Shown: piece by piece, positions 3,019 to 30,237 of the stretch
Position numbering within the stretch: the stretch's first letter is position 1
How the letters are laid out: each line of letters starts with the position of its first letter
Assembly: GCA_022566155.1 (NCBI GenBank)
Contig: JADFJS010000002.1
Coordinates: 1 to 38,600, forward strand
Reading direction: 5' to 3'
DNA from: Chloroflexota bacterium
GTDB lineage: Bacteria; Chloroflexota; Dehalococcoidia; Lucifugimonadales; UBA3495
Length of the DNA: 38,600 nucleotides
Translations under genes and position numbers: made by a program
The notes under the pieces: model-generated
Told to the model about the DNA's origin: nothing
Seen by the model: the letters and a program-made list of their open reading frames with translations, nothing else
The model's database searches: none

Positions 3019-3242
3019 CGCCTGTCCCGCCGCATCCTCCACTGTCCATCCCACGCCAAGCCGGAACGGAACGCCGGCACACCGCTATCTTTATCGACCG
3101 CAGGCTTTCTCTTTGTCCCTGAGTTAACGTATCGACCCTGGGCCTACATTGTCCTTTTTACCCTTTTCCCTCAACTCCCCTCTCGGTCCCGGAACGTAAT
3201 TGTTCCACACCGGGTCCCCCCAGCCACCCCACTCCAAGGTGC

Positions 3243-3290
3243 TGCCACCCACCCATAGGGTTTAACGCCCTGTGGGTAACCAAGGTGGCA
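3243..3290 (+). promoter_or_regulatory. Two-tier RNA hairpin in archaellin 5' leader
   Basis: Outer arms TGCCACC (3243-3249)/GGTGGCA (3284-3290); inner arms CCCATAGGG (3252-3260)/CCCTGTGGG (3268-3276, one G-U pair), loop TTTAACG. Confidence 0.6.
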
Positions 3291-3340
3291 ACCCCGTGTG
3301 CCAGCGTTATGGGCCAACCCTACACTTATCTGAACACCAG

Positions 3341-3407
3341 GGAACGGCGAGCCGCGGATGAGTGGGCCAGGGCAGAAGGCTTCCACATCCGCCGACAACG
3401 CCGTTCC
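3341..3407 (+). promoter_or_regulatory. Nested RNA hairpin in archaellin 5' leader
   Basis: Perfect outer arms GGAACGGCG (3341-3349)/CGCCGTTCC (3399-3407); perfect inner arms GCGGATG (3354-3360)/CATCCGC (3386-3392). Confidence 0.65.
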
Positions 3408-3459
3408 TAGCGGTTCACACATATGTGGGCAAATCTTAATTTCGAGAGGAGAGTTGACC

Positions 3460-4089
3460 ATGACCAGTATAAGGGGCAATTTTTTGCAGAGGCTACGGTC
3501 GCTGTTGCCCAGCCAACGAGGCATCACCGGACTTGAAACCGCCATCGTCTTGATCGCCTTCGTGGTGGTCTCGTCGGTGTTCGCCTTCGCGGCCCTGTCC
3601 ACCGGCCTGTTCTCCGCCGATAAAGCCAAAGACACCATTCAGGCAGGGCTTGCAGAGACCAGGGGCAGCATGGAGCTCAAAGGCTCTGTGGTGCTCACAT
3701 CGACCGTCGGCACCACCGGGGTTGTGTCCAACATCGCCTTCCAAGTGTCCAACGCCGCGGGCGGCGAGGCCATCGACCTGACCCCTGGCAAAACTATCAT
3801 CAAGTACAACGATGAAACCCAGTCGAGGATCTTCGACGCCGACAGTGGCTTTACCGTCACCCCAATCGGTAGTGCCGACAGCGACAAACTGCTTGAGCTA
3901 AAGGAGATCTACCAGATCGACATTATTAACCTTCATATCACCGGCGACAGTACCAGCAAGAATAATTTGTTGAACACGCTGGGTACCAACACGACCTTCA
4001 GCTTGGAAATAATTCCACCTAGGGGCGCAGTGCTCTTCATCGAACGCACCACGCCCGTTTACATGGACATCAGTACTTCGCTTGACTAA
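3460..4089 (+). CDS. arlB: Archaellin (archaeal-type flagellin, class III signal peptide)
   Basis: N-terminus 'LLPSQRGITGLETAIVLIAFVVVSSVFAFAALSTGLFSADKAKDTIQAGLAETRGSMELKGSVVLT', typical archaellin. ATG at 3460 preceded by GAGAGGAGAG. ORF-track start 3358 lies inside the structured leader. Confidence 0.9.
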   Translation: MTSIRGNFLQRLRSLLPSQRGITGLETAIVLIAFVVVSSVFAFAALSTGLFSADKAKDTIQAGLAETRGSMELKGSVVLTSTVGTTGVVSNIAFQVSNAAGGEAIDLTPGKTIIKYNDETQSRIFDADSGFTVTPIGSADSDKLLELKEIYQIDIINLHITGDSTSKNNLLNTLGTNTTFSLEIIPPRGAVLFIERTTPVYMDISTSLD

Positions 4090-4280
4090 CGGGCTACCTG
4101 TAAGTCGTGGGGCCGGTGGTACGCCAAGTACACCGGCCGGCACGGCAAATTCCGGCCCGGTCCAGCCAGCACAGTTAGTGGGCGCCTCACCCGAGCAGAC
4201 CTCGGCGGTGATATCCGTATCCCTGGAATCCACCACCGGGGCCTGTTCCCAAATACGACCTCCGGGCACAGGGATTCATC

Positions 4281-6065
4281 ATGGCGGATAAAGACACACG
4301 GGTAGACGCCCTGGAGGACGAGGTCAAGGTTCTCAAAGGCGAGGTCAGGCGGACGCTGGTGGACCTCCGGGCATTGCTGATGCGAGAGGACTCGCCCCTC
4401 AATGAAGGTTCGTTGGGACGCAGATCGACACCGATAGACTATGGCGCCGATGAAGGGCCTCCACAGGCACGAAAGGAAGTTACCGAGACGACAAAGGTGA
4501 TCGAGAACGAGCCGGCGGCGGCTGTACCGAGCGCCCCACAACCGGCTAATCCTGGTCAAGGAATCGGAAACGCCGCTCCACCATTTGCCGGTGTGGTCCC
4601 CGGTGGCATGTTTCCACCCCAAATGGGTCCTCAACCGGGGGCAGGTTGGCCCGGTCCTCAAGCAGTCCAAGCACCACCACCCCCAGCGCCAGCGCCAGCG
4701 CCAACACCACAAGCGTCGCCCGGCCTCGATGCGGCCATGGCCGAGCGAGAACGAAGGATGGTCGAACAGGAGCAAAGGATGGTGGAGCAGGAGCGGAGGA
4801 TCGCCGACCAGGAGCGGAAGATCGCCGACTCCGAGAGCGCCCGGGACCGCCGAGAACAGGACATCGCCAACGATGCAGTTAAACGGGAATCTCCCACTCC
4901 AGCCAGCCAGCCGGATTCCGTCGTGCCCGAAACAGTACGCACGTCTGTCGGAGGCAGGATGCAGGAAACGCCCACTCCAGCCAGCCAGCCGGATTCCAGC
5001 GTACCCGAAACAGTACGCACGCCTGACGAAGGCAGGATGCAAGAATCTACCCCTCCAGCCAACCAGCCGGACAGTGCATCCAAAACGGATCGCCCGCCCG
5101 AAGAAGTCAGGATGCAGGAAACACCGGCTCATGACAGGGAATCGGATCCTAGGCAGTCTGAGATGGAGCGCTCGTCCGTTGAAGTAGATCCGGAAATGAA
5201 CGGTATGGATCGGCCGGAGCCGCGGAAACGTCCTTCCGGCCGGATCCAAAACCAAGAACCCGAGGATGGTCAATCCGAGGAACCATCCCAGCCGAGACGG
5301 CTTGCCTCCCGTGGAGAACCCAGGCGTGAACCAGCGAACGACGATGTAGAGGTGGACTATGAGGATGGAGATCAGTTCGCCGGTAAGGATCAGATCGATG
5401 AACCCTATGATGACGAGTGGAACCAGCCGGACCGCGACATCTCATCTGGGCCCCGTCAAGAACAGCGGGGCCGGAAGCGAGTCTACTATGACGAAGACGC
5501 GGAGGCTGCCAGGCCTCGTTCCAGACTCCAGCATCAGGAGCAAGACTCGGCCGGCGCCTCTCAAGATTCTGATCGCCCTTCCCGCCGGCGGGTCAAGCCG
5601 GCGGAGTGGCGTCAACAGACCCAATCTGATAACGGACATGGTTACCATGAGAAATATGACGAGAATCAGAATATTAAACGCAACGGTACCGGCAGCCGGG
5701 TCTATGAAGAGTACTTTCAGCTCTTGTCTGAGACTGAGGAAAGCTACGAAGATAGCGGCGAAGCCTCCCCATCGGCGCCCATGGACATCAACCTGGTAGC
5801 CAGTTTGGTGCGCTGGGCATCGATCGCCAAACAAAGGGTGGGAGAGGACCGGTTATACGACATCCTGGAACTATACCTGCAATCGGGGCATGCTACCCCG
5901 GGGCTGCGCGAACTGCTAACACAAACCTCTGGGATGGCCGATGCTATGCCCCCTGAAACCAATCAAACCGCCCAAGAGTGTGTGGACCTGATATCCCACC
6001 TCCACGGCATACTCACCGGTTCCCTGGCCATCGCCAGAGTCCCACAGTTAAAGTTGCCGGCCTAG
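4281..6065 (+). CDS. ArlC/D/E-like archaellum switch-complex protein with long disordered, repeat-bearing middle
   Basis: C-terminal 'DINLVASLVRWASIAKQRVGEDRLYDILELYLQSGHATPGLRELL' resembles the archaeal FlaD/E domain; gene order between arlB and arlG/F/H; ATG preceded by AGGGA. Confidence 0.65.
   Translation: MADKDTRVDALEDEVKVLKGEVRRTLVDLRALLMREDSPLNEGSLGRRSTPIDYGADEGPPQARKEVTETTKVIENEPAAAVPSAPQPANPGQGIGNAAPPFAGVVPGGMFPPQMGPQPGAGWPGPQAVQAPPPPAPAPAPTPQASPGLDAAMAERERRMVEQEQRMVEQERRIADQERKIADSESARDRREQDIANDAVKRESPTPASQPDSVVPETVRTSVGGRMQETPTPASQPDSSVPETVRTPDEGRMQESTPPANQPDSASKTDRPPEEVRMQETPAHDRESDPRQSEMERSSVEVDPEMNGMDRPEPRKRPSGRIQNQEPEDGQSEEPSQPRRLASRGEPRREPANDDVEVDYEDGDQFAGKDQIDEPYDDEWNQPDRDISSGPRQEQRGRKRVYYDEDAEAARPRSRLQHQEQDSAGASQDSDRPSRRRVKPAEWRQQTQSDNGHGYHEKYDENQNIKRNGTGSRVYEEYFQLLSETEESYEDSGEASPSAPMDINLVASLVRWASIAKQRVGEDRLYDILELYLQSGHATPGLRELLTQTSGMADAMPPETNQTAQECVDLISHLHGILTGSLAIARVPQLKLPA
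4893..5123 (+). repeat. Three in-frame tandem repeats (78, 78 and 75 bp; 26/26/25 aa)
   Basis: TPASQPDSVVPETVRTSVGGRMQE / TPTPASQPDSSVPETVRTPDEGRMQE / STPPANQPDSASKTDRPPEEVRMQE. 'ctccagcca' recurs at 4897, 4975 and 5053. Confidence 0.9.
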
Positions 6066-6122
6066 ATCGGCAGCCAATGAAATTCCCGGAGACATATCAT
6101 CGAAAAATCAATCTCCACAGCT

Positions 6123-6566
6123 ATGTTCCTGATTGCCAGCGTAATCGCCGCGCTGGCCCTGACCAACGCGGTGCTGCCCGCAATGGGGAAAAGCGCCAGC
6201 GCCCTGGTTTCCGCCAATAAATCTGCCGCCGAGCGCATCAAGACCGATATTGCCATTGTTCACGCCACCGGAGACGCGGCCAATGACCAAGTCACCGTCT
6301 GGGTAAAGAATATTGGAACTCAATCAATCAAGCAAATCGACGCCAGCGACGTGTTTCTTACCACACCCAGCAGCGTGCTAAGACTGCCTTATGTAAGCAG
6401 TTGCGCCAGCGAGTGCTGGGATTATTCCATAGAAGGCGGCGGTGCCGCCTGGATCCAAGCGGTGACGGTCAAGTTTACTATAAAAACCAGCGTGGATACC
6501 GGCAATTACAATGTTTCCGTTGCCGTGGCCAACGCAGTTAGAGCCGACAAAGATTTCAGCGTCTAA
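6123..6566 (+). CDS. arlG: ArlG-like archaellum stator protein (N-terminus may extend upstream of 6123)
   Basis: 'MFLIASVIAALALTNAVLPAMGKSASALVSANKSAAERIKTDIAIVHATGD...QVTVWVKNIGTQSI', an N-terminal TM helix plus beta domain as in archaeal ArlG; position in operon. Confidence 0.7.
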   Translation: MFLIASVIAALALTNAVLPAMGKSASALVSANKSAAERIKTDIAIVHATGDAANDQVTVWVKNIGTQSIKQIDASDVFLTTPSSVLRLPYVSSCASECWDYSIEGGGAAWIQAVTVKFTIKTSVDTGNYNVSVAVANAVRADKDFSV

Positions 6567-6612
6567 ATTTAACGTTTGGGGACGGAATCAACTTTGAGAA
6601 GAGGCAGGCCGC

Positions 6613-7131
6613 GTGGGCATCGTATTAGCGGGGTTTGTGGTAATCACCACCTTCTTGATGACCTCGGTGTTGATGTTTAGCGCATTTTTGTCCGCTTCTG
6701 TATCCCAGGGGGAATCATTGAGGGTGATCACTCACGTTAGCAGCGAAAGACTGGGCAGCGCACTATCCATAACTAGTGCATCCGTTGTCACCCCGGCTGG
6801 GCCGGACGTGGCGGTGCAGGTGGATAACAGTGGCAGCCAATCGGTGGTCCGCTTTGGCGAATTGGACGTGATCATAAAATACACCGATTCGGACAACACC
6901 GCGGCCCTGCGATACCTGGCGTATACCTCGGGCGCACTCGGCAACAACCAGTGGACGATCGCCACCACCGGGGTGCAGCCCGATAACTTCAACCCGGGGA
7001 TGTGGGACCCCGGTGAGACCCTGCCGATAGACCTGCGGGTGTCCCCAGCCATCAAGGCCGGGACCGCCGCAGAGGTAGTGGTGGGAACCCCATGGGGAGT
7101 AAACGATAAGAGTTCGATCGTCAACCCGTGA
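6613..7131 (+). CDS. arlF: ArlF-like archaellum stator protein
   Basis: Single N-terminal TM helix followed by a beta-rich domain ('VAVQVDNSGSQSVVRFGELDVIIKYTDSDN'); GTG start; between arlG-like and arlH. Confidence 0.65.
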   Translation: MGIVLAGFVVITTFLMTSVLMFSAFLSASVSQGESLRVITHVSSERLGSALSITSASVVTPAGPDVAVQVDNSGSQSVVRFGELDVIIKYTDSDNTAALRYLAYTSGALGNNQWTIATTGVQPDNFNPGMWDPGETLPIDLRVSPAIKAGTAAEVVVGTPWGVNDKSSIVNP

Positions 7132-7210
7132 ACGTGCCGGTCCAATCCCGGTTAGTTGGCGAATGTGTCTACGTGCTGGCTGAAACGTATCCCCGAAAGG
7201 AGGTGACATC

Positions 7211-7933
7211 GTGACTACAGGCGCAATGGCGGATGCGGGAGGGATAATATCCACCGGAAGTAGCGAGATAGACAAGAAGCTGGGCGGCGGGATCCCTGTC
7301 GGGTCCCTGGTTCTGCTGGAGGGACAATCCGACTCCGGCAAGAGCGTCGTGTCTCAGCATTTCACCCATGGCTCATTGAACACTAGAATGTCGGCCGCCT
7401 ACTACACCACGGAAAACACGGTCAAGAGCCTGATGACCCAGATGGCCTCCCTTAACCTGGACGTCACCGATTACTTTCTGTGCGACCGATTGAGAGTTTA
7501 CCCCCTGGAGATGTCATCCACTAAGGAAAACGACACCAAGGAGGCGTTCCGGGTTCTTTTGGACCACTTCGACAGTTTACCCGTCAGGTTCAAACTGACG
7601 ATCGTGGACAGCCTTACCGGCCTGGTTTCCCACAGCGACGACCGGGCCATCATCGACTTCTTTGCCTCTTGTAAACAGCTCTGTGATCGAGGCCGCACGA
7701 TTATCGCCGTGGTCCACTCCTACGCCTTCGACGACCGCATGTTGATTCGTATACGTTCGCTGTGCGATGCACACCTGGTCCTGAAGGTGGACCAGGTGGG
7801 AGAGCGGTTGATCAAGATTATGGAGGTAGCGAAAGTTCGAAATGCCGACCAGTCCACGGGAAACATTATCAGCTTCGATGTGGAACCGGGTATGGGCATG
7901 AAAATCATCCCAATCTCAAAAGCTAAGGCTTAG
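7211..7933 (+). CDS. arlH: Archaellum KaiC-like ATPase/ATP-binding protein ArlH
   Basis: 'GGIISTGSSEIDKKLGGGIPVGSLVLLEGQSDSGKSVVSQHFTHGSL' with Walker A GQSDSGKS; GTG start with strong SD AAAGGAGGTGA. Confidence 0.92.
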   Translation: MTTGAMADAGGIISTGSSEIDKKLGGGIPVGSLVLLEGQSDSGKSVVSQHFTHGSLNTRMSAAYYTTENTVKSLMTQMASLNLDVTDYFLCDRLRVYPLEMSSTKENDTKEAFRVLLDHFDSLPVRFKLTIVDSLTGLVSHSDDRAIIDFFASCKQLCDRGRTIIAVVHSYAFDDRMLIRIRSLCDAHLVLKVDQVGERLIKIMEVAKVRNADQSTGNIISFDVEPGMGMKIIPISKAKA

Positions 7934-7936
7934 ATC

Positions 7937-9661
7937 ATGCCTGCAGGTGCTTTGCCATTCCCGGCCCAAAAAGGACACTCCCATAAGGGAGGAATCAAGA
8001 CTTGCCCGATGTTCAAGATGTTGCCGGCGGGTCTGCAAGAGGAGGCCAAGAAAAATGAGTTTTTACTGGACTACATCCACATGCTGCCGATGGACGAGGT
8101 GGGCATCCCGGAATATTACCCCGAACTGAATCGGGGCTTGGGGGATCTAAAAGACCCCAACCTTATCTATCCGGTGGGGGAACAAACCTACATTCACATC
8201 TTTGCCGACCAGACCGATAGCCGCGACTACTACATCGCCATCGAGCCCGGGATGACGCTGGATATGGACAGCCTGATGGAGGCCCTTGAAGACCGCCTGG
8301 TTGACTACGTAGACGAGCTGGACGACTTGGATGGCGCCCAAACGGACCGGGGGCAGGTGCTGCGGAACATCCTCGCCAAGGCCTGCATAGTTGTCGATGC
8401 CAAAGACCTCAAATCTCAACGGAAAAAGAACGAGAAGAAGGCCGCTGCCAGACTTCCGGTCAGCAAGGCCGAAATGGCTTCGCTACGGTACCAATTGATA
8501 CGCGACAAAGAAGGCATGGGCGTGATGGAGCCGTTGATCCTGGACCCTTACATCGAGGATATAAGCTGCAGCGGCCTGGGCTCATTGTTCCTGGAGCACA
8601 AGATCTTCAAGAGCCTGAAGACCAACATTTCATTCGGGTCCTTAGACGAGCTGGACACCTTTGTGATCCAACTGTCCGAAAAGATTGGGAAACCAGTCAC
8701 CTACCGAAACCCCATTGTAGACGCCGTTCTTCCCGACGGCTCCCGCATCAATCTCGTCTTCGGCGCCGACGTCTCCAAGCGGGGCAGCAATTTTACTATT
8801 CGAAAGTTCTCAGCCGAACCGTTGAGCATGATTGAGTTGGTGGAGTTCGGAGGGCTGACCTATGAAATGGCCGCCTACTTTTCTCTCGCCATGCTCCACG
8901 GCATGAACATGTTCATTGCCGGGGAAACGGCCTCGGGGAAAACCACGCTGATGAACGCCGTGACGGTATTTCTCCATCCAAATTCCAAGATTGTCAGCAT
9001 TGAGGACACACCCGAACTTCAGGTCCCTCATCCCAACTGGATCCGGGAGGTGATCAGGGGTAAGGCGGGAGACGACTCCTCTTCTTCGGTTACCATGTTT
9101 GACCTGCTGCGGGCGGCCCTAAGGCAGCGGCCCAACGAGATCATTATTGGCGAGATCCGAGGCGAGGAAGGGGCGATCGCATTCCAGGCGATGCAGACCG
9201 GCCATGCCTGCATGGCTACTTTCCACGCGGCTTCGGTCGAGAAGCTGATCCAACGCCTTACCGGCAGCCCCATCAACATTCCCAAGACTTATATCGACAA
9301 CCTCAACTTGGTGGTCATTCAGAGCTTGGTACGCCTGCCCAACGGCAAGGATGGCCGCCGGATCCTCAGCATAAATGAGATCGTAGGCTACGATTCGGCG
9401 ACAGATTCCTTCTCTTATATCGAAGTTTTTCACTGGAACCCTGTGGATGATTCCTACGAGTTTACCGGTTACATGAACAGCTACCTGCTGGAGGAGGTCA
9501 TCGCCTTCAAATTGGGTCTCCCTCCTCATCGAAAACGTGAAATCTACAAGGAGCTCAGCCGAAGGGCCACCATCCTGCGTAAGCTAAAAGATCAGGGAGT
9601 CACCGGGTTCTATGACCTCTTCAAAGTCATCTCGCAAGCGTCCCGCCAAGGTATCTTCTGA
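7937..9661 (+). CDS. arlI: Archaellum motor/assembly ATPase ArlI (T2S/T4P secretion ATPase family)
   Basis: Walker A 'IAGETASGKTTLMNAV', 'SIEDTPELQVPHPNW', 'RQRPNEIIIGEIRGEEGAIAFQAMQTGHACMATFHAASVEKLIQRL'. Confidence 0.93.
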   Translation: MPAGALPFPAQKGHSHKGGIKTCPMFKMLPAGLQEEAKKNEFLLDYIHMLPMDEVGIPEYYPELNRGLGDLKDPNLIYPVGEQTYIHIFADQTDSRDYYIAIEPGMTLDMDSLMEALEDRLVDYVDELDDLDGAQTDRGQVLRNILAKACIVVDAKDLKSQRKKNEKKAAARLPVSKAEMASLRYQLIRDKEGMGVMEPLILDPYIEDISCSGLGSLFLEHKIFKSLKTNISFGSLDELDTFVIQLSEKIGKPVTYRNPIVDAVLPDGSRINLVFGADVSKRGSNFTIRKFSAEPLSMIELVEFGGLTYEMAAYFSLAMLHGMNMFIAGETASGKTTLMNAVTVFLHPNSKIVSIEDTPELQVPHPNWIREVIRGKAGDDSSSSVTMFDLLRAALRQRPNEIIIGEIRGEEGAIAFQAMQTGHACMATFHAASVEKLIQRLTGSPINIPKTYIDNLNLVVIQSLVRLPNGKDGRRILSINEIVGYDSATDSFSYIEVFHWNPVDDSYEFTGYMNSYLLEEVIAFKLGLPPHRKREIYKELSRRATILRKLKDQGVTGFYDLFKVISQASRQGIF

Positions 9662-11099
9662 TAACGCCGCAATCAGCTTCGATCTGCTGTCCAACCTCAC
9701 GTACATGGCCGCGTTGGCCACCGGCGGATCGGACCGCGACACGATTCTGAAATGGGCGATCAAGCAAGATTTCAAGACGGGCACCTTTTTCCGCCGCGTC
9801 TACCTCCTCTCCAAGCGGCTAGGGTTCGAGTACACCCGGTCATTTCGCATGGTTGCCGCCAAAGCCGGCGCCTCATCGGTAAAAAACCTTTTACTGCGGT
9901 TCGCGGGCGCCATCTCCTCCGGTGTCTCCGAGGCTGACTTTCTGGCCGAAGAGGCGAGGGTCGAACGGGACCTGTACATAAACGCCTATTACCGCAGCCT
10001 CGAAACCCTGACGAAGTGGGGAGATGCCTACGCGGCCCTGCTGGTGTCGGTTTCCCTGATAGTAGTAGTCGCGATGATGTCCACCATGATCAGCAACCTG
10101 GGTGCCACTTTCGTGATTATGCTTACCTCGACCATGGTCATGGTGTCTGCCTTTGGCGTATATATCATCTATCGGACCGCGCCATACGAAATCAAGACAT
10201 ATCAAAACAACCGTGGACCAGTGGAGAGGGTTTGGGCCAAGCGTCTGTTTTACGCGCTGGTACCCGCGAGTATCTTGATTGGCATATTTCTCGGCTACAT
10301 TTACGGCTTCCACTATTTCCTCTTCTCCTTGGGGATTGCTCTTTTCCCTTCGGGCTTCATGGCCTGGATGGACAATGGCAAGGTTAACCAGCGAGACCAG
10401 GAAGCCGCGACCTTCGTGCGTTCCCTTGGCAATGTAACAGCCTCCCTGGGCACTACGCTAGGCGCCGCATTGATAAAGATAGACCGGCGCTACCTGGGCA
10501 GTCTGGAACCGTCTATCAGACGTCTGCAAGTACGTCTTAGCAGGGGAATCAACACCCAAAAGTGTTGGGACGCCTTCCGGGACGAGGTGGGCAGCGAGCT
10601 GATGAACCGGACTTCGCGCATGTTTGTCGACGGTGTCAGCCTGGGTGGACCTCCGGAAAAGGTGGGCGCCATCGCGGCGGAATACTCCCAGGACGCCGCA
10701 ACCATGCGGGCCCGCCGCATGGTGTCGGCCGCTCCATTCTCCTTTCTAGTGATTCCCCTCCACTTCGCCATGACCGGGTTGATGACCTTCGTCCTGGAGA
10801 TAATCAGAGCGTTCAATACACGAATAGAGATCGCCTCGGCAGAGCTGGCAGCGCAGTCGGGCGACGGGGCAATGGGCCTGTTGCCGGACTTGCCGATCTT
10901 CCAGACTCAGGATATGACCTTGATGTCTAACATCACCCTGGTCGCTCTGATATCCATGACCGTATCCAATGCCCTGGCGCCCAAATTCGCGTTGGGGGGG
11001 CATTCCCTGATCGTCGGCGTATTCGGCTCGATCACCTGCTTGATGACGGCTTTCAACATGGCGGTGATCCCCCCCATTGCCGCCCAGGTGATGCTATAG
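9612..11099 (+). CDS. arlJ: Archaellum polytopic membrane platform protein ArlJ
   Basis: T2SF-type multi-TM protein ('GNVTASLGTTLGAALIKIDRRYLGSLEPSIRRLQVRLSRGINTQKCWDAF'), directly after and overlapping arlI by 50 nt. Confidence 0.9.
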   Translation: MTSSKSSRKRPAKVSSDNAAISFDLLSNLTYMAALATGGSDRDTILKWAIKQDFKTGTFFRRVYLLSKRLGFEYTRSFRMVAAKAGASSVKNLLLRFAGAISSGVSEADFLAEEARVERDLYINAYYRSLETLTKWGDAYAALLVSVSLIVVVAMMSTMISNLGATFVIMLTSTMVMVSAFGVYIIYRTAPYEIKTYQNNRGPVERVWAKRLFYALVPASILIGIFLGYIYGFHYFLFSLGIALFPSGFMAWMDNGKVNQRDQEAATFVRSLGNVTASLGTTLGAALIKIDRRYLGSLEPSIRRLQVRLSRGINTQKCWDAFRDEVGSELMNRTSRMFVDGVSLGGPPEKVGAIAAEYSQDAATMRARRMVSAAPFSFLVIPLHFAMTGLMTFVLEIIRAFNTRIEIASAELAAQSGDGAMGLLPDLPIFQTQDMTLMSNITLVALISMTVSNALAPKFALGGHSLIVGVFGSITCLMTAFNMAVIPPIAAQVML

Positions 11100-11201: not shown

Positions 11202-11915
11202 ATGGGCCTACTGGGCAAGATTATCAAACGGCAGAGTGCCGAGGACGCGGAAGATCTTGACTTCGAAGAAGAATTAGTCGATTCCCTGGACATGCCTGAC
11301 GAGGAGAGTGGCTCCAGTACCGGAATCCTGGGTAAAGTCCTGAAGTGGCGCGGGAAGGGTGACTCGGAAGATGCGGACGAGGACGAGGAGCCGGACGAGA
11401 TAGAGGATACGGATGAGACGGAGGATGCGGACGAAACGGATTCTGATGAGTACCCCAGCAACGCCGACGCTGCCGGCACCGCGGAAGAGGACCCTCCTGT
11501 CCAGGTAGTACGGTTGGAAGGTATTCCAGATGTACACCCTGTCGGTGATTCAAATACCAACATGACGCCGGGGCGGGGACCCGGGGCTGCCGCGGGCGCC
11601 GGGGGATCCGCCGGGCCCAGCGCTGGGCAGGATCCCGCTGCGGATTCTTCCCTGGAAGACGGCAACAATGCTGCCGAATCGCCCATAGCTGAGGTGGATG
11701 ACGCCGAGGGGGATGACACTAAAGAAGGCGACTCCAAGCAAGGCGGCGCCAGCGTACCAGACCTCGGCATTTCTTTGGAAGATATATTTGGGGAGGAGGA
11801 GGAGGTAGACGAAGCCCTTCGAGACCTCGCCGACTTCGTGGAAGATGTCGCGGCCAAAGATTTGGCCAGCGACCTGCAAGAGTTCTTAGAAGAACTGGAA
11901 GCCAGGCAGAAATGA
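11202..11915 (+). CDS. Highly acidic hypothetical protein following arlJ
   Basis: 237-aa ORF with basic amphipathic N-terminus (MGLLGKIIKRQ), long D/E-rich middle and a predicted helical C-terminus 'VDEALRDLADFVEDVAAKDLASDLQEFLEELEARQK'; ATG preceded by GAAGGAG. Confidence 0.7.
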   Translation: MGLLGKIIKRQSAEDAEDLDFEEELVDSLDMPDEESGSSTGILGKVLKWRGKGDSEDADEDEEPDEIEDTDETEDADETDSDEYPSNADAAGTAEEDPPVQVVRLEGIPDVHPVGDSNTNMTPGRGPGAAAGAGGSAGPSAGQDPAADSSLEDGNNAAESPIAEVDDAEGDDTKEGDSKQGGASVPDLGISLEDIFGEEEEVDEALRDLADFVEDVAAKDLASDLQEFLEELEARQK

Positions 11916-11970: not shown

Positions 11971-12000
11971 TTGACATAAAAATGCAGGCCTGAATATACT
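11971..12000 (+). promoter_or_regulatory. Sigma-70-type promoter upstream of glmS
   Basis: TTGACA (11971-11976), 18-bp spacer, TATACT (11995-12000). Confidence 0.7.
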
Positions 12001-21810: not shown

Positions 21811-24339
21811 CTACTGCGGCCAGTCTAGGATCGTGACTTCACCATCCGAGGTCACGATGGCCCGGTACTGGGTCACTGTGCCGTCGGGCGACACGGCGGT
21901 CATGTTGTACAGAGTGCCCCCGGTGCTGCTGCCGCCCTCGGCGGTTACCACGGTTTGGACCGCCGCCAGGGCCGCTTCCACGATCGCTCCGACCAGGTCG
22001 AGCAGAGCCTGGAAGTCGTCGGCGTGAAAAACGTGGTCCGAGTAGTAGGGGTCCGGGTTGGTGTCGTCGAATACAGCTTCGGGGTCGTCGGGGTCATAGG
22101 CGATCGCGAAGAGATCTTCTCCATCCACGTCGGCGGCCGCCCCTACGCCCACGGCAAAGACCTCGGCGCCGCTGCCGGCCGAGGCGTTGGCGATACTCTG
22201 GCCGGGCATGGATGACCCGTCAACGATCACGATCAAAAGGTTGGGAACCTCAGCGCGGTCCCCCAGGCCGCTGTCAAACTGGGTCCCGGTGACAAAGTTA
22301 AATGCCGACACCAGGTTAGCACCGCCGCCCTGGCTCGGCGCCGGCGCCAGATTCTCATCGATCCCGTCGTGCAATGGGAGGCTGCTGGAGGCGCCGGTGG
22401 TTATCTTCAAGAAGGATGAATGTTCGTCGGCGCCTCCCCAGCGGTATTGGAAAAGCCGTTGGTTGACATTGGACTTGTCGCTCCAGACCTCCACACGTAC
22501 TCGTAGCTTGTCTCCAACCTCCACGTCGATGCTTGACGGATGGGCGAAGGACAGCACTTCATCGTCGAAGTTGGGTGGTGTGGTGGCTGACGCGGTAGTG
22601 AAGACGGTGACAATGCCGCCGCCGTCCTCCACGAGCTGCAATTTCCACCGCCAGCGGTTCTGTGAGTGGCCCGACTCGATCCACTGGGTGAATGCCCACG
22701 TGGCCGCAGAAATCGAACCGGCGGAGCCGAAGGCGGTTGTTTCCCAGAAGTCCGAAACCTCTTCCCACTCACCTTCCACCGAGAAATCGGTCCCTTCGGC
22801 CGGGGTATGGCTGCCTTCGGTTGAAGCGCATCCTTGAACAGTGCCCAATGGATATGGAGAGCCGCCGCCACTATTTGGAAAATAAAGGGTCGCGTTGATG
22901 GGGGCTGGAGAGTGGGAGTCCACGTCGGTCATATCGGCCACGGAGCTGGACTGGCCGCCAAAACGAGTAAGGCCGATCCTTATCCTGCCCTCGGTCGTTT
23001 CCAGGCTAAACCCGTCAACCATCGCGTTGGCCGCTTGCCTGAGCTGGACTAACTGGCAGTCATCGACGCTGCCGCTGTTGTCCAGAAGGAGCACGGTGTC
23101 GGCAAACGCAATGGCCCAGCTGTTGAATCCGACCGGTTCATAGATCAACTGTATCTCGTTGAAGAAGGCCAAACCGGGGTCCGCCTTGGTGGTGGCTTTC
23201 AGCGTCTGGATAAGCTCCTGACCCGCGGCGATGGTGAACAGGGGAACATCGTCGTCCCCGGTCTCCCAGGTCAGCGTGCAACGCTGCAGGCCGGTTATAT
23301 CAGGGGGCTGGGTGCAAGGTGCCGGGACCGACGTTGGATCGGAGGAGCTGATGCCGCTGCTGGAGCCCGCCTGGTAGATGAATCCCGGGGGAAGGATGTC
23401 TACCATCTTGGTCACCGGCAGCGCGTTGGAGGTGACATTCTCAACGCTCACGGTGTAGGTAACTTCGGTCTCCCCCGGGGCCAAGATCCGAATATCTGTT
23501 ACCTTTTTACGCACCAATAGCTCCAGGTTGAAACCGCACTTTGTGCCGCCGTCCCCAACGGTTACCTCGGCGGTATAGGGCGTGTGGACCTCCACGGTGG
23601 AAGCCGGGTCCCCGATCAGGTAGCTCATGGTCACTTTGTTGTAGTAGATCCCGTCGGGCAGAGTCCCGGTCGCCTCGAATGTCAGCGTCTGAATATCCTG
23701 TGGGGCAATGACGATGACCGGTGAGAAATCCCAGGTTAGCTGGTCGGGTTCGTCCCCACAGCGTTGGTCTCCAGCGGCTAGGGAGATGTCCGGATTGCCG
23801 CTAAAATTAAGGACACCATTGAAGAAACCCTCGGTCGTGTTATCGGTGTACTGAAACAGCGGGGGCAGGTAATCGATGAGTTTCTCCAGGGATATCGAGC
23901 TGGTGCCCTGGTTTTTCAAGGTGATAGTGTAGGTGAAGGTGGTAAGGGTATTCAGCGTCGCCTTGTTGGGGGTAACCTCCTTGAAGCCGCTCTGTATCTC
24001 TTGAAAGCTGTAGCCTGGCGAATCGCCGGGCGACGCAGGCAGCTCGGTTGCCGTTAGCGTAATCTGGTCGTCGCAGAATGTGAGGGTTTCCTCGCCGCCG
24101 GGGTTGTCATCAAACCAGGCCAGCCAGCGTTCCGGATCAAGAGCCAGATAGCGTATATATTCACGTACGCCCAAGTCGCAATATTGGCGCTTGAGGATCT
24201 TGGTTTTGACCCGCGAGTCGATAGCGATGGTGCTGGACAAGCTCAAGGCCGCCGTAATGATGGGCACACCAAAGGCCATAAATGCCAGGACCAACAATAT
24301 GGCCACCCCACCTCTCTCGCCGGTCAACAGAGACCTCAT
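21811..24339 (-). CDS. VWA + DUF11-like repeat surface protein with pilin-like N-terminal TM; candidate T4P tip adhesin
   Basis: N-terminus 'GGVAILLVLAFMAFGVPIITAAL'; two DUF11-like segments ('TYTITLKNQGTSSISLEKLIDYLPPLFQY', 'TYTVSVENVTSNALPVTKMVDILPPGFIYQAG'); VWA MIDAS-like 'VLLLDNSGSVDD'. Confidence 0.8.
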   Translation of the reverse strand: MRSLLTGERGGVAILLVLAFMAFGVPIITAALSLSSTIAIDSRVKTKILKRQYCDLGVREYIRYLALDPERWLAWFDDNPGGEETLTFCDDQITLTATELPASPGDSPGYSFQEIQSGFKEVTPNKATLNTLTTFTYTITLKNQGTSSISLEKLIDYLPPLFQYTDNTTEGFFNGVLNFSGNPDISLAAGDQRCGDEPDQLTWDFSPVIVIAPQDIQTLTFEATGTLPDGIYYNKVTMSYLIGDPASTVEVHTPYTAEVTVGDGGTKCGFNLELLVRKKVTDIRILAPGETEVTYTVSVENVTSNALPVTKMVDILPPGFIYQAGSSSGISSSDPTSVPAPCTQPPDITGLQRCTLTWETGDDDVPLFTIAAGQELIQTLKATTKADPGLAFFNEIQLIYEPVGFNSWAIAFADTVLLLDNSGSVDDCQLVQLRQAANAMVDGFSLETTEGRIRIGLTRFGGQSSSVADMTDVDSHSPAPINATLYFPNSGGGSPYPLGTVQGCASTEGSHTPAEGTDFSVEGEWEEVSDFWETTAFGSAGSISAATWAFTQWIESGHSQNRWRWKLQLVEDGGGIVTVFTTASATTPPNFDDEVLSFAHPSSIDVEVGDKLRVRVEVWSDKSNVNQRLFQYRWGGADEHSSFLKITTGASSSLPLHDGIDENLAPAPSQGGGANLVSAFNFVTGTQFDSGLGDRAEVPNLLIVIVDGSSMPGQSIANASAGSGAEVFAVGVGAAADVDGEDLFAIAYDPDDPEAVFDDTNPDPYYSDHVFHADDFQALLDLVGAIVEAALAAVQTVVTAEGGSSTGGTLYNMTAVSPDGTVTQYRAIVTSDGEVTILDWPQ

Positions 24340-24881
24340 CAGTCCAGTTTCCTGATGTGGGTTGTGAGACTGATGCTTTCCGTTGTACCTCGATCGGCAT
24401 CAACCGCCAGGTCGAATTTGAGGTCGTTATTGCAAAGGGAGAAGCCCACGGACCCTGATACAACTTCCCTGGCTACGACGGTTGTTAAACCGTCATAGTC
24501 TCTGTTCAGGGTGTCGCCCGTCACCAGGTAGGTGACTACGTGGGACCCACTGCCGTCGCTCAGAATCAAGGTCACGCTGTTGGCTGGTGAGGTGGGATTA
24601 CAGGAGAGGTTGGTCCCAGCCGGAGGCGGCCCATCCAAGACATTTTCCGCTTTCAGAGCATCGCCGGCGAACCTGCTGCCGGCGTGGCGCAGCTCCATCG
24701 TGGCCACCGCGCCGTCGCGCCAGTACCTCTGAATGCTGTGGACCTGGAATAGCGCGCCGCCAATCATACCCGTGGCCATGGTGAGAAGGCCCACGGCAAT
24801 GACCAACTCTATCAGGGTGAATCCACCACCGCCGGCCAGAGTTGATTTCAAAGCCTTGGCTTTTTCCAGTATTGTCGCCAA
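24339..24881 (-). CDS. Prepilin-type N-terminal cleavage protein (minor pilin, PilW-like)
   Basis: 'GGGGFTLIELVIAVGLLTMATGMIGGALF' class III signal peptide. Confidence 0.85.
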   Translation of the reverse strand: MATILEKAKALKSTLAGGGGFTLIELVIAVGLLTMATGMIGGALFQVHSIQRYWRDGAVATMELRHAGSRFAGDALKAENVLDGPPPAGTNLSCNPTSPANSVTLILSDGSGSHVVTYLVTGDTLNRDYDGLTTVVAREVVSGSVGFSLCNNDLKFDLAVDADRGTTESISLTTHIRKLD

Positions 24882-25124
24882 CTGTTGCTGCTCCGTTGGG
24901 CACGGCGATCAAACTACCGATTACTCAGACATTGCCGGAGTTTCTACTACAGGTGCAATACTGTGCCCATCTGCCGAGTCGTAGCTTGGGAGGTCCCAGA
25001 CCGATCGTGGGAGAGATCGATAGGCCCTGCCGGCTCCGGTATTGCCACCAAACTTTGGTATGTGCAGTGTGCCGTTGGGCGGGATCTGGAACCGGAAATG
25101 CCCGGCAATGCCGTGCCGGAGAGG

Positions 25125-25724
25125 CTAGTTGGCCCTCAGCGTCTCCAATACCAGCACAGCCCGCCCCTCCACGCTGACGGTTACCACCACTCTTTCAACG
25201 GTCCCCTCGTAGCTGTCGGAGGCCTGCAACTCCAACGCTACGGCGCAGATGCTATAGCCGGTGGAGGAACCGCAGGCATTCGCCTCGGCGAGAGTATCGT
25301 ACGCCACGGGCTGGGACTCAGCGGGCTTGTAGGCCTGATTGAATACGGACTCCATCTGGTTGCGGGCGAGGCGCTCGGCGATTGAATGGTCTTCCACTAA
25401 ACTGGCCGAAATGTGGGCCGTGCGGACGCCCAGCACCACGGCCGTACCCACCGCTCCGAAAATAGTTATCGCCAGGACAACCTCTATCAACATCTGGCCC
25501 GAGGAATCCCGGGCCAGCCTCCAGGGTTCCAGCCAGAACCCCCGGCCCATCCGCCGCAGGAAGGCTAGTGCACGTGCTGAGCCAGTTGTTGCGATCCATT
25601 TAAAAGCTGGAAATAACATTTTTGCTAGGTTCTTCCTGGTGCCGGCTCTTGCCCATCTTCTAAAGCCTAGGAACAGCAACGCCCGGCATTTGCTGCATAG
25701 TGCTGCCGGGCATTGCTGTCCCAC
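25125..25724 (-). CDS. Minor pilin-like protein with atypical prepilin motif; true start likely downstream of 25724
   Basis: 'DSSGQMLIEVVLAITIFGAVGTAVVLGVRTAHIS' pilin-like helix; the extreme N-terminus overlaps a strong stem-loop. Confidence 0.7.
   Translation of the reverse strand: MGQQCPAALCSKCRALLFLGFRRWARAGTRKNLAKMLFPAFKWIATTGSARALAFLRRMGRGFWLEPWRLARDSSGQMLIEVVLAITIFGAVGTAVVLGVRTAHISASLVEDHSIAERLARNQMESVFNQAYKPAESQPVAYDTLAEANACGSSTGYSICAVALELQASDSYEGTVERVVVTVSVEGRAVLVLETLRAN
25673..25719. promoter_or_regulatory. Strong intercistronic stem-loop between major pilin and minor pilin genes
   Basis: ACAGCAA-c-GCCCGGCA (25673-25688) / TGCCGGGC-a-TTGCTGT (25704-25719): 7 + 8 bp perfect arms with one mismatch. 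Confidence 0.65.
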
Positions 25725-25780
25725 TAACCTATCATCGATGGATGGCGCCCCACCGCCAGCTTAGAGCCCTTGGGGCACCG

Positions 25781-26158
25781 CTAGCAATCTGTTTGGGCTA
25801 GAAGTTTACCCGTAGTGTCCCAAGTGTAACAGTAGGCGGTGGAGTCGTCCCTGAAGTACTCGGCTATCAGTTGCCCACTGCCGAAGTCGGTGGTATTGGT
25901 GATCGCGGCGGCGGTGCCACCGGCCGTAACTGAGGTCAAATTGTTGTCGGTGATCATGAGATCAATGGCCGCTTGCACGTTATCGAACTCCGACTTCTTG
26001 GCGCCCTCTTCACCGCTTCCGGAGAACTTGATGACCGTGGGGACGATGACCGCGGCCAAGGCCACGATAATTCCCACCACGACGAGCATTTCGATAAGAG
26101 TAAACCCCTTTTGGCTCTTGCCCACCTTCTCTTGGATGTTTTTGAGCATTTTCCGCAT
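25781..26158 (-). CDS. Major type IV pilin-like protein (PilA)
   Basis: 'KSQKGFTLIEMLVVVGIIVALAAVIVPTVIKF' canonical prepilin motif; short pilin with C-terminal Cys pair; SD AGGAGG before the ATG. Confidence 0.88.
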   Translation of the reverse strand: MRKMLKNIQEKVGKSQKGFTLIEMLVVVGIIVALAAVIVPTVIKFSGSGEEGAKKSEFDNVQAAIDLMITDNNLTSVTAGGTAAAITNTTDFGSGQLIAEYFRDDSTAYCYTWDTTGKLLAQTDC

Positions 26159-26428
26159 TTCACTTACCTCCTGTGCGGCTATTGTTCCTGCCTATCGGTC
26201 TATGAAGTGTACCGAAGCATTGCCTAACATTCTAGCAGGATAACGGCGAGATTCTGTGACATTCTACACTGGAAGATTGTGCCTTTCGTCACACTTCGCC
26301 GGGTCTCCTCTCGTATATTGATTCTACCGCGTCCGCTGCACGACGATGCCGGGAAAGTTGGATCTACCAGGCTGCCAAGGCGGCCCTGGTAATTGCCAAG
26401 TAGCGTCAGCCTGGATTATTCAGCTCCC

Positions 26429-28168
26429 TTACTCTTCTGCTTCGAGCACCGGGATTGTAGCCATGATGGCAAAGCTTACACCTCCCTTTTTTTCTTCGCT
26501 CACTTGCTGCACGGTGGCATTGGCGAAGGCAAGTTCATTGCGTAGGTTAGCCGAATATTCTCCGGTTTCATCTTGATATTTGTCGAAACCCTGCCTGGTA
26601 AACAGCCTGTATTGGCGTAGGCCGGCGGCATATTCGAGCACCTCCCCACTGTCGGATGCTATGCCGGTCAGAAGAAAATTACCATCCTGGGGGACCAAAG
26701 ACACGAGTTCAACACCTTCGGGCAGGGCTCTGCTGGTAACGGTCTCCAGCCTGACCAAAAGATCAGCCATGCTGCCGCTCATGTCCAGAAGTTGCGTCTC
26801 CAGCGCTTGGATCTCGATATCGGCCGCCTTCAAATCACGAGCAGTGGACCTCAATCGGTTGGAATCCAGGCGCAGACCCCGCTCCCCAGCCTCCTTGTCT
26901 GATTTTTCAGCGGATCGCAAGTCCGCATCCTGCACCGCCTCGGCGACGGGGCCAGCGACGCTGAAAGCAAGGCCCGCCAACAGGAAGAGTCCGATAAATA
27001 CGCCAATCGCTAAAAACGGGAATGGCCGCGGCCGGTAGCGCTCTGGCAGAATGTTGAGCACCGGGCCAGAATCACGCCAGGTTTTCCCCTTGGCCTTATC
27101 GCCCAGGAACAATCCAAGGTTTGCCGCATATTCGCTGGACGGGAAATCATCCGGGCAATCCAATGATGGCGTAAAGGGCAGCACGGGGCCCTGTAAAACC
27201 CGAGGGAGAGCTTCCGCCAACCGGCTGTTTGTAGCGAGTTGGCCGGTCAAGACAACCGGCAGGGTCTGGGTGACTTCCTCCGGGTCCACCATCTGATAAA
27301 AGCCCTCTACACGGTCCACGACCGACGCCACAGCCTCGGCTTGGTCCTCGGCAGAGGTGATGCCTTCGGGGAATTCCATCTGGTGGACTACCCTGGGCAT
27401 GCGGTCTCGCACCAGAACTACCGCCGTCTGAGCGCGTTCAATGTGAACTATGATGACGTCCGGCACGCCCACGGCGAAGGCCAGCGCCGCTTCTTTGGAG
27501 TACACGGCCTTGAGCGTCCCACCGGCTTCCTCGAAGAGCTGCACCTGAGTGTCCATCTTGCTTTTAGGCACCGCCGCCGCGATAACCTCATGGCCCGCGC
27601 TGTCCCGGCGGCGGAGCCAGTTGATATCCACTTCAAATGGATCGAATGGAATGCTATTCACGACCTCGGCGTGGATGATCTCTTCAAGGTGCGCTTTGCT
27701 GGTCCCGGGCAGACGCATGTGACGCATCAGGGGTATGTACAGGGGCAGGTCTGCCACCAACCGGCTACGCCTTTGCTGGATCTCCTCCAGCATGACGCTG
27801 AGCTCGCTCTTGGGCGGGGGGGCCGGCATATCATCGGAGCCCTCTTCGGGCGTGTCCTGTGCCGGTTTACCTTCCCCTGGCGGTTGCGCCTCAGATGCGG
27901 ACCCTTCTTTATCGAGAGATGCGCTTTCCAGAGAAGCCGATCTCCATCCGAGCACCTGGGCCCCCTTGAACACCACTGCCCGTACTTGACCGGACTCCAT
28001 GCTGAGGGTCACTGTCTGGGCGCGGAACCTCTGGGTTGACGCTTCCAGCCTCACGGATACACGGCGCCAGATCGGGCTTAACACGCGAGTTACGCCACCC
28101 AAAGCCCCCGCTATCGCTTGACGCAAGGTAGTGACGGCCCTGGCTATCGCTTGACGCATGGTAGTCAC
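26429..28168 (-). CDS. Fused PilM-like/PilN-like T4P assembly protein
   Basis: N-terminal actin-like PilM region ('LPLYIPLMRHMRLPGTSKAHLEEIIHAEVVNSIPFDPFEVDINWLRR'), then 'VLNILPERYRPRPFPFLAIGVFIGLFLLAGLAF' and a coiled-coil/PilN-like C-terminus. Confidence 0.8.
   Translation of the reverse strand: MTTMRQAIARAVTTLRQAIAGALGGVTRVLSPIWRRVSVRLEASTQRFRAQTVTLSMESGQVRAVVFKGAQVLGWRSASLESASLDKEGSASEAQPPGEGKPAQDTPEEGSDDMPAPPPKSELSVMLEEIQQRRSRLVADLPLYIPLMRHMRLPGTSKAHLEEIIHAEVVNSIPFDPFEVDINWLRRRDSAGHEVIAAAVPKSKMDTQVQLFEEAGGTLKAVYSKEAALAFAVGVPDVIIVHIERAQTAVVLVRDRMPRVVHQMEFPEGITSAEDQAEAVASVVDRVEGFYQMVDPEEVTQTLPVVLTGQLATNSRLAEALPRVLQGPVLPFTPSLDCPDDFPSSEYAANLGLFLGDKAKGKTWRDSGPVLNILPERYRPRPFPFLAIGVFIGLFLLAGLAFSVAGPVAEAVQDADLRSAEKSDKEAGERGLRLDSNRLRSTARDLKAADIEIQALETQLLDMSGSMADLLVRLETVTSRALPEGVELVSLVPQDGNFLLTGIASDSGEVLEYAAGLRQYRLFTRQGFDKYQDETGEYSANLRNELAFANATVQQVSEEKKGGVSFAIMATIPVLEAEE
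28110..28158. repeat. Two copies of GCTATCGCTTGACGCA at 33-bp spacing encoding duplicated N-terminal helix
   Basis: Copies at 28110-28125 and 28143-28158; protein MTTMRQAIARAVTTLRQAIAGALGG. Confidence 0.85.
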
Positions 28169-28977
28169 CGCCCCAGCCGCGGAGAGTGTCCTGTACTCCC
28201 CGCCGAACTTGAGGCTGCCGCCGGCCTAGGAGTAGACGTGGGGTGGGGCACCGCGGTTGCAACCGGCGGCTTTGGAGTGGCGGTCGGAACAGTAACCGGA
28301 GAAAGGAAGAACAGAAGCGTAACCTGAGCAGACGGGTCCTCGTCCAATTTAGAGAACCTGATGTCAGTGGCGGTGGCCACAGGGACCGTTTCCCGGAGCA
28401 GGGCTAGAAATTTAGAGAAATCGACCGGCCCTCCTCTCAAGTTCAAACCTACCCGCCCGACTTGGTAGTCCATGGGCCCCACATTCTCGATCTGCGACTC
28501 GCCAGACGAGATGGAGATCAGGGTCATTCCCGTTTCCAGGGCGGTATCGGCCACGATCTTCAGCAATTCGTCGGTGGAGGAGTACTGGAAAACGCCGTTG
28601 AGGGCCTTCAACTGTAAGCCCCCAGCTTCCAGCAGCAATTTTTTGGCTTCTAACTGCTGCTTCAGCGCGTCGATGTTTTCCTCTAGCAACAGCTTCCGGG
28701 CTTCAAACAGCAGTTCTCCGCCTTTCAGCTTTGGGTCCTCGGTTTGCAGCCGCACCTTCAGGGATTCTAATCTCCTCTCCGGGTCCTTCACCGGGGAGAG
28801 GGCGGCTATCTTGCGGTCAAGGACACTGATGTCCTTTTCCAGAGAGGACTCATCGGACTGAGCTTGATAGTACCGAAACCCCTGGTATGCGAAATAGCCG
28901 AGCAGTGCCACTCCCATGATGCCTGCGATGGCGATCCAAGGCTTGACTCTTTTCAGGAGTTGTCGTAGTTGGTCCAA
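28165..28977 (-). CDS. PilO-like T4P assembly protein
   Basis: Single N-terminal TM, long coiled coil, C-terminal 'YQVGRVGLNLRGGPVDFSKFLALLRE'; adjacent to the PilM/N gene; 4-nt overlap. Confidence 0.75.
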   Translation of the reverse strand: MDQLRQLLKRVKPWIAIAGIMGVALLGYFAYQGFRYYQAQSDESSLEKDISVLDRKIAALSPVKDPERRLESLKVRLQTEDPKLKGGELLFEARKLLLEENIDALKQQLEAKKLLLEAGGLQLKALNGVFQYSSTDELLKIVADTALETGMTLISISSGESQIENVGPMDYQVGRVGLNLRGGPVDFSKFLALLRETVPVATATDIRFSKLDEDPSAQVTLLFFLSPVTVPTATPKPPVATAVPHPTSTPRPAAASSSAGSTGHSPRLGR

Positions 28978-29013
28978 TATCTATGGTGAAGGCACGAATA
29001 TGGTCTATCGGCG

Positions 29014-30231
29014 CTAGGGGGCTATGGCGTCCATTCCAGACATGATGGGCATGAACATGGACAGTGCCATAAACAGTACAACTCCCCCCACGGCGAAAGT
29101 AGACAAGGGCTCCATCAGGGATAGGATGGCGGCCAGCCGGTTCTCCACTTCAGCCTCGTATGCATTGGCCAGGTTTTCCAGTGTCTGGGGCAGGAAATTG
29201 TTTTCCTCCCCCACCATCACCAATTCCACCCAGAGCCTGGGTAGGACAGGGTATTCCTTGAGGGCTTGTGCCATACCGCGCCCGGCTAAAAGGCTCTGTT
29301 CTCCAGCCGCGAAGGCAGCATAAACCACCAGGTTCTTGCACCCGCCGATGGCCAGAGGCAGGGACTCGGCCAAGGATACACCGGCATTTAGCAGCATTGC
29401 GTTGGTGCGGGAAAATGCCGCTATCTCTTTGGACACCAACAGGCTACCGATGACGGGTAATTTGGTGCTCGCTAAGTGCATCTTGTAATGGATAGTGGGG
29501 ATACGGCTCCCAACCGCGTAAGCGACCGCCAGGAATACGATGACCCCGACTATGATCAATAGATTGTCCGAGATGAACCCCACAACGCCCATGGCGATGG
29601 CGGTGATCAGAGGGGTATCGGCGTCGAAGGCCTCGAAAGATTCGAGGAGGGGCGGCAGCATGACGGTCATCATGAGGACCAGCATCGCCACGGAGGAACC
29701 CATGGTGAAGAGGGGCATCATCATGGTCCGCTTGAACCGCTGAACCGCCTCGTGCTCCCGCTCCATGGAGTCGGACAGCTGCTCCAGGGCCGATGCAAGA
29801 CCGCCGGTGTGTTCGCCAACTTCCACCACGCTTACAAAACGGGCGTTGAACACCGCAGGGTGCTTGGCCATCCCAGAGGAAAGGCTGCCACCTTCGTCTA
29901 GGGTCTTGCGGATGCTGGCCAGGATCTTGCGTAATACTCTATTTTTGCTCTCAGACTCCAACATTTCAAGCGAGCGTTGAAGGCTGCTTCCGCCCAGTGT
30001 CATGGTGGCTAGCTGCCGGGACAGGCGCACCAGGTCCCCAGTTTTGACCTTGAACAGGGATGGGAAAATCTCGTCAATGGGAGGAAGCTTCCGCGCAGGT
30101 TTGAGCTGAAGCAGCCTCAACCCCCTGCCAAGGACCTCTTCCCGGGCCTCATACTCGTTCTCGGCATCCACCCGGCCTTTGATCACGCCCTGCTCCAGGG
30201 TGTAGGCCACATAGTTGAACTGCATAGACAA
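29014..30231 (-). CDS. pilC: Type IV pilus inner-membrane platform protein PilC (T2SF)
   Basis: 'LVRLSRQLATMTLGGSSLQRSLEMLE', 'SGMAKHPAVFNARFVSVVEVGEHTGGLASALEQLSD'. Confidence 0.92.
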   Translation of the reverse strand: MSMQFNYVAYTLEQGVIKGRVDAENEYEAREEVLGRGLRLLQLKPARKLPPIDEIFPSLFKVKTGDLVRLSRQLATMTLGGSSLQRSLEMLESESKNRVLRKILASIRKTLDEGGSLSSGMAKHPAVFNARFVSVVEVGEHTGGLASALEQLSDSMEREHEAVQRFKRTMMMPLFTMGSSVAMLVLMMTVMLPPLLESFEAFDADTPLITAIAMGVVGFISDNLLIIVGVIVFLAVAYAVGSRIPTIHYKMHLASTKLPVIGSLLVSKEIAAFSRTNAMLLNAGVSLAESLPLAIGGCKNLVVYAAFAAGEQSLLAGRGMAQALKEYPVLPRLWVELVMVGEENNFLPQTLENLANAYEAEVENRLAAILSLMEPLSTFAVGGVVLFMALSMFMPIMSGMDAIAP

Positions 30232-30237
30232 CCCTCT

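Follow-up and report, generated by a model that had tools for sequence, protein, structure and literature searches.

How an archaeal rotary motor is accommodated in a bacterial cell is the question raised by a locus in a marine-type Chloroflexota bacterium of the class Dehalococcoidia (SAR202) (assembly GCA_022566155.1), analysed here in a window of 38,600 nucleotides (contig JADFJS010000002.1, positions 1 to 38,600 of the forward strand). The locus is an uninterrupted, tightly spaced run of seven genes on the + strand (3460-11099), namely arlB, an ArlD/E-type gene, arlG, arlF, arlH, arlI and arlJ, followed by an acidic open reading frame (ORF), referred to below as the tail ORF (11202-11915, + strand). 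The transfer of a whole rotary motor between domains has already been published: archaella have been reported for 243 Chloroflexota genomes, and for one species both swimming and a filament structure at 2.7 Å are on record (PMC12488501), and archaellum genes have been described in SAR202 isolates (PMC10444878). What remains of interest is how the soluble ring of the archaeal motor was adapted to the envelope of a bacterium, and how the motor switches when CheF is missing and CheW is often absent as well; the conserved and so far unnamed operon-final protein offers a concrete gene target. We consider it very likely that the locus represents a complete archaellum operon as found in SAR202 (Dehalococcoidia, Chloroflexota), arl2 (G-F) in type and with the tail family as one of its parts. 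The Chloroflexota archaellum itself is already known; the tail family is what is new here.

Identity of the archaellum operon

The archaellin gene arlB (3460-4089, +) matches PF01917 (4e-23) and has a class III signal peptide, SQRG followed by ITGLETAIVLIAF. The best PDB sequence matches of its product (9i5h/9sie/9sii, 1.9e-35) include the archaellin filament of Litorilinea aerophila (9SIE/9SII). The KaiC-like regulator ArlH (7211-7933, +) matches NF004723 (4.5e-83) and NF052589 (4e-62), as well as the crystal structures 4yds (2.3e-35) and 4wia, so that the match to archaeal ArlH on which the initial annotation of this DNA had made its reading depend is present. The motor ATPase ArlI (7937-9661, +) scores 662 bits against the archaellum model NF058587, the cut-off of which is 550 bits, compared with 180, 156 and 56 bits for the bindosome BasE, TadA and PilB models. 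Its Walker A/B, Asp box and His box are all intact, and its PDB sequence matches are 4ii7/4ihq. The gene for the membrane platform, arlJ (9612-11099, +), matches NF004703 (1.9e-112) with a score of 376 bits, under the 570-bit cut-off; it overlaps arlI, and its true start may be within the overlap. The stator-type genes arlG (6123-6566, +; NF052591, 1.9e-10) and arlF (6613-7131, +; PF22201, 1.1e-5; NF052590, 1.8e-4) have archaellum families as their top matches and lie where expected, with scores below the curated cut-offs.

All reading frames of the operon are open. A class III signal peptidase (Peptidase_A24, PilD/PibD type) is encoded elsewhere in the genome (G000:C76), and a prepilin peptidase away from the arl locus is also found in published Chloroflexota cases (PMC12488501). 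The genome therefore has an archaellin, an archaellum-type ArlI, ArlH, ArlJ, ArlF/ArlG, a D/E ring protein and a signal peptidase, and the initial annotation was too cautious in calling the operon near-complete, the peptidase having been found. Its description of consecutive and tightly spaced + strand genes agrees with both the ORF positions and the family matches; its identification of an archaeal motility set is upheld by the curated models, which name ArlB, ArlG, ArlF, ArlH, ArlI and ArlJ, and the comparison of models that it called for favours those of the archaellum over those of bindosome, TadA and PilB for ArlI. Judged by these matches, a run of seven such genes is beyond chance. By homology with L. 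aerophila, ArlJ and ArlI would assemble and rotate the archaellin filament, while ArlH would act as a regulator, ArlF and ArlG as stators and the ArlD/E-type protein as the cytosolic ring; the source organism presumably swims. The divergence of ArlF/G and ArlD/E, and the description of SAR202 isolates as non-motile (PMC10444878), might suggest that the cluster encodes a type IV pilus that does not rotate, or that the operon has decayed. Such a reading is very improbable, as ArlI exceeds the archaellum cut-off and stands 480 bits over the bindosome model, the archaellum-specific ArlH and ArlF/G are present, and neither frames nor ATPase motifs are disrupted; L. aerophila was likewise once considered non-motile (PMC12488501).

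In the ArlI tree, for which one archaeal phylum was sampled, the 29 Chloroflexota sequences form a single clade (96/98) beside 20 archaeal archaellum ArlI and apart from the haloarchaeal pilus ATPases and PilB. The root is uncertain because PilB forms a very long branch. The phylogeny proposed as a check thus places ArlI on the archaellum side and not in the type IV pilus/Tad clades, and a type IV pilus or Tad identity of ArlI and ArlJ was rejected on the basis of model scores, PDB matches and this tree. ArlI was found in 60 of the 396 genomes of the class (38 of the 221 good ones). The nearest loci, with ArlI 78-67% identical, belong to the SAR202 cluster or to Dehalococcoidia metagenome-assembled genomes (MAGs), and four of them (L034, L035, L036 and L066) share the flanking genes to the left and right, among them glmS, a synteny which indicates that the contig is neither archaeal nor chimeric. 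Archaeal-type genes do adjoin bacterial ones here, as they would in an artefact of assembly or binning, but the junctions are identical in these four independent MAGs, the G+C content of the contig is even, and ArlI nests within Chloroflexota. An archaeal or chimeric contig was consequently rejected as next to impossible, and the bacterial (Chloroflexota) origin of the contig holds. The operon would have reached an ancestor of the group from archaea and have been inherited vertically here.

The locus shares with L. aerophila and other Chloroflexota (PMC12488501, PMC13319060) its single location, the arl2 G-F order, a ring protein of the ArlCDE type rather than ArlX, a prepilin peptidase encoded elsewhere and the absence of CheF, in addition to the filament that is the best PDB match of ArlB. 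The remark in the initial annotation that archaella had already been reported in Chloroflexota was correct (PMC10444878, PMC12488501, PMC13319060). The G-F order is the Chloroflexota rule (PMC12488501) and not peculiar to this locus; of the architecture of its own once attributed to it, the repeat in the ring protein is local, but the gene order is common and the tail ORF is lineage-wide. The 'Candidatus Lucifugimonas marina' isolates (PMC10444878) belong to the same SAR202 clade and also have flaB followed by flaGFHIJ. They carry six tandem flaB, whereas there is one here, and a D/E-type or tail gene was not described for them. The euryarchaeal archaellum of the ArlCDE type likewise has ArlB, a D/E domain, F/G, H, I and J, and differs in that here CheF is absent, the D/E domain is fused with a lineage-specific N-terminal coil, the G-F order is unlike arl1, and the terminal ORF is extra.

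A conserved gene at the end of the operon

The tail ORF starts with an ATG at 11202, shortly downstream of a sequence resembling a ribosome site (aaggag), and no terminator-like site was seen between it and arlJ. A promoter-like sequence, TTGACA-18-TATACT (11 of 12; 11971-12000, +), precedes glmS; such sites are no more numerous here than chance would give, and this one is the best by far. The presence of a near-consensus promoter between the tail ORF and glmS places the former within the arl unit and the latter outside it.

Relatives of the tail at BLAST level are limited to the nearest clade. An operon-final ORF of about 105-285 amino acids is present in 36/36 Chloroflexota operons with their end on the contig. 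In this count L057 was entered via an alternative ORF, and four operons (L037, which the contig end truncates, L039, L060 and L067) by position and visual inspection alone. A profile built from six C-termini of the window clade provided a non-circular test: when searched against 2959 ORFs, 21 operon-final ORFs from other clades (E-values 2.5e-6 to 0.55) precede the first unrelated ORF (0.63), and in the genome-wide search of the 396 genomes its first six non-self matches all lie behind arlJ or arlI. The 25-row tail profile, which is partly circular, has 34 matches at E<=1e-4; in 26 cases the match follows ArlI on the same strand, at a distance of 0.25-2.5 kb. Two further matches lie directly behind arlJ at contig ends, in genomes without a prior ArlI match, meaning that the tail predicted the archaellum in those genomes. 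The gene is last in both the H-I-J and the J-DE-H-I operon orders. No tail was found at the arl locus in any of 24 archaeal genomes with archaellum ArlI (one archaeal phylum sampled), in a run where three Chloroflexota controls match at 1.5e-17 or better; three weak partial matches were located on contigs other than the arl locus. The acidic ORF pointed out in the initial annotation is thus genuine and one member of a widespread family, whose standing as the last gene of archaellum operons in Chloroflexota (Dehalococcoidia) is well supported. There is no mention of a terminal acidic ORF in the main texts of PMC12488501 and PMC13319060.

Some observations weigh against this reading of the operon and its last gene. 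Matches obtained with single sequences are weak for ArlF, ArlG and the tail, and the source genome is 67% complete. The tail comparison includes no Anaerolineae locus (and hence not that of L. aerophila), since phylum-wide ArlI searches gave members of the same class only. A small protein with a tail-type C-terminal domain also occurs in one family outside archaellum loci (f63; L103 3680-4081, G187:C85; also L104 and L083).

The cytosolic ring protein

The ArlD/E-type protein (4281-6065, +) consists of an N-terminal coil, a long disordered linker and a C-terminal DE domain, and has no Pfam or NCBIfam match on its own. The DE domain (5781-6023, +; the C-terminal ~81 residues) is conserved over Chloroflexota loci, in which its W and Y are invariant, and is predicted to form four helices (predicted local distance difference test, pLDDT, 85.8; predicted template modelling score, pTM, 0.77). 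A structure search of the PDB gave no match for it. Among the 2959 ORFs, the first match of the bacterial DE profile outside the family is an archaeal protein (E 6.9e-5) which itself matches Arch_fla_DE at 2e-22, and the profile also finds D/E proteins in 6/20 archaeal loci (E<0.05). On this profile evidence, the C-terminal domain is homologous to archaeal ArlD/E. The N-terminal coil is a separate conserved element (LKGEVRRTLVDLRALL), with no Pfam match to archaeal ArlC (FlaC, PF05377), and the coil profile finds no archaeal ArlC; of the earlier designation as ArlC/D/E-like, the D/E part is therefore borne out by the DE profile and the ArlC part is not. The linker is highly variable, whole proteins ranging from 175 to 908 amino acids among the compared loci. 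In the window it contains three copies of a 26-amino-acid repeat (78-nucleotide unit; 4886-5120, +), which confirms the repeats noted before; they are specific to the source genome, none having been seen in relatives.

A mini-gene of about 57-68 amino acids matching the N-terminal coil adjoins the ArlD/E-type gene upstream in many Dehalococcoidales operons (L051 7993-8193, L041 8021-8224, L056 8086-8259, L057 8129-8296, L039 3094-3291 and others). The source window is without it.

Proposed role of the tail protein

The N-terminus of the window tail has two basic amphipathic patches, MGLLGKIIKR and GILGKVLKWRGK. Tails of the window clade have 2-3 basic patches of the pattern G-hydrophobic-hydrophobic-(G/S/D)-K/R, those of most other clades begin with other short basic or amphipathic stretches, and those of L039, L099, L100 and L107 have a transmembrane-like hydrophobic stretch followed by K/R. 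The middle is strongly acidic in most of the proteins (net charge of -58 in the window). The C-terminal domain (11751-11912, +), with invariant F and L, comprises ~45 residues at the C-terminus, for which three helices are predicted with modest confidence. That the amphipathic start is swapped for a transmembrane helix while the C-terminal domain is kept argues for attachment to the membrane with this domain in the cytosol.

Our tentative preference is for the tail as a membrane tether of the cytosolic motor ring. Its N-terminus, made of basic amphipathic helices or, in some lineages, a transmembrane helix, would hold the protein at the membrane, the long acidic linker would bridge a gap, and the C-terminal helical domain would bind ArlH, ArlI or the ArlD/E ring, thereby tethering the soluble ring. 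In Thermoproteota this is the job of the ArlX transmembrane helix, and in Euryarchaeota a polar cap has been suggested for it. As euryarchaeal ArlCDE has no membrane anchor while ArlX has one, with the polar cap as suggested substitute (PMC8978795), a tether role is favoured for the tail. Bacterial archaella could then hold an extra membrane-tethered acidic adaptor, acquired when the system entered Chloroflexota or later, and replacing ArlX or the polar cap as ring anchor, a proposal we put forward with the same reserve. The likeness to ArlX lies only in the proposed role, that of a partner of the cytosolic motor anchored in the membrane (PMC8978795): a sequence relation to the tail is not shown, and ArlX is the ring itself, whereas a separate ring protein is present here. 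The case for a tether is weakened by the low pTM of the C-terminal domain model (0.39) and the lack of any match in a structure search of the PDB. Moreover, membrane contact is deduced from composition alone, the N-terminal hydrophobic moment of the window protein is modest, and the acidic bulk might hinder membrane binding. A relation of the C-terminal domain to a diverged D/E domain was considered and rejected (hhalign probability 0.3%), and weak tail matches in archaeal D/E proteins are acidic stretches of 13-20 residues only.

It is rather unlikely, though only a step behind in our ranking, that the tail is a polar localisation factor or an assembly chaperone instead of a mechanical tether. 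A membrane-seeking N-terminus, a linker that is both acidic and disordered, and short helices for binding would all fit, and a polar cap is not known from these bacteria, but the sequence could not be linked to MinD or to polar or chaperone families.

Coupling to chemotaxis

CheF was found in 0/36 archaellum genomes of the class, in a search in which archaeal controls were positive, and its absence in Chloroflexota has also been stated previously (PMC12488501). A CheW domain is present in 9 of these genomes and missing from the other 27 (25 of the 34 good ones). The complete lack of the domain in 27/36 means that neither CheW nor CheA is present there, and together with the absence of CheF this indicates that most of these archaella appear to run without a Che array. 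The source genome itself also lacks CheW, which at a completeness of 67% carries little weight. Histidine kinases and response regulators were observed downstream of the operon in both lineages examined (L042 and L052).

The tail might then be a chemotaxis adaptor standing in for CheF between CheY and the ArlD/E ring. The tail ORF belongs to the same operon, CheF-arch is missing from 36/36 archaellum genomes searched, another linking protein has been proposed to have evolved in Chloroflexota (PMC12488501), and the response regulators flanking some operons could still signal to the tail. Nevertheless, many genomes without CheW carry the tail (e.g. G146, G388, G270, G344, G035, G034, G061 and G083), for which reason a replacement of CheF is disfavoured and regarded as improbable. 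Among the roles considered, a tether of the ring would accordingly rank first, a localisation or assembly factor second and a signalling adaptor last.

Leader sequence and neighbouring features

The leader upstream of arlB (3140-3456) folds better than shuffled sequences (z -4.85), in accordance with the structured leader first described. A conserved portion (3186-3348, +) has blocks shared with the four closest relatives, and the motif occurs upstream of arlB in the window clade only. No Rfam family matches the leader, and a consensus structure derived from five sequences is poorly supported, with thin covariation. The leader could be either an RNA element or a promoter/operator.

Two adjacent arlI genes are present in several loci (L099 10324-13813, L100 8076-11567, L101 4508-8074, L107 and L108), as well as in the archaeal loci L069 (8045-11470) and L156; wherever they could be read, the Walker A/B, Asp and His boxes of these genes are intact. 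We found no publication on such a pair. The L099 and L100 copies form two orthologous clades (100/99, 98/94), which indicates that the pair is old, while the L101 and archaeal pairs have separate origins; a hetero-hexameric motor is possible. Some SAR202 operons have giant ORFs of about 1286 amino acids between arlG and arlH (L061 3650-7513, L064 3101-6958). PD40 beta-propeller repeats were shown for that of L061, and these ORFs possibly provide stator or envelope contacts.

PilN/PilO have been proposed as archaellum anchors in L. aerophila. In contrast to that species, no LysM match was seen in the window, and the genes resembling PilM/N and PilO lie about 15 kb off, in a type IV pilus-like cluster (21811-32019, - strand) situated 10 kb from the archaellum. 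This cluster encodes a PilM/PilN-like fusion, a PilO-like protein, PilC, PilB (MshEN + T2SSE), pilin-like proteins and a VWA/DUF11 protein.

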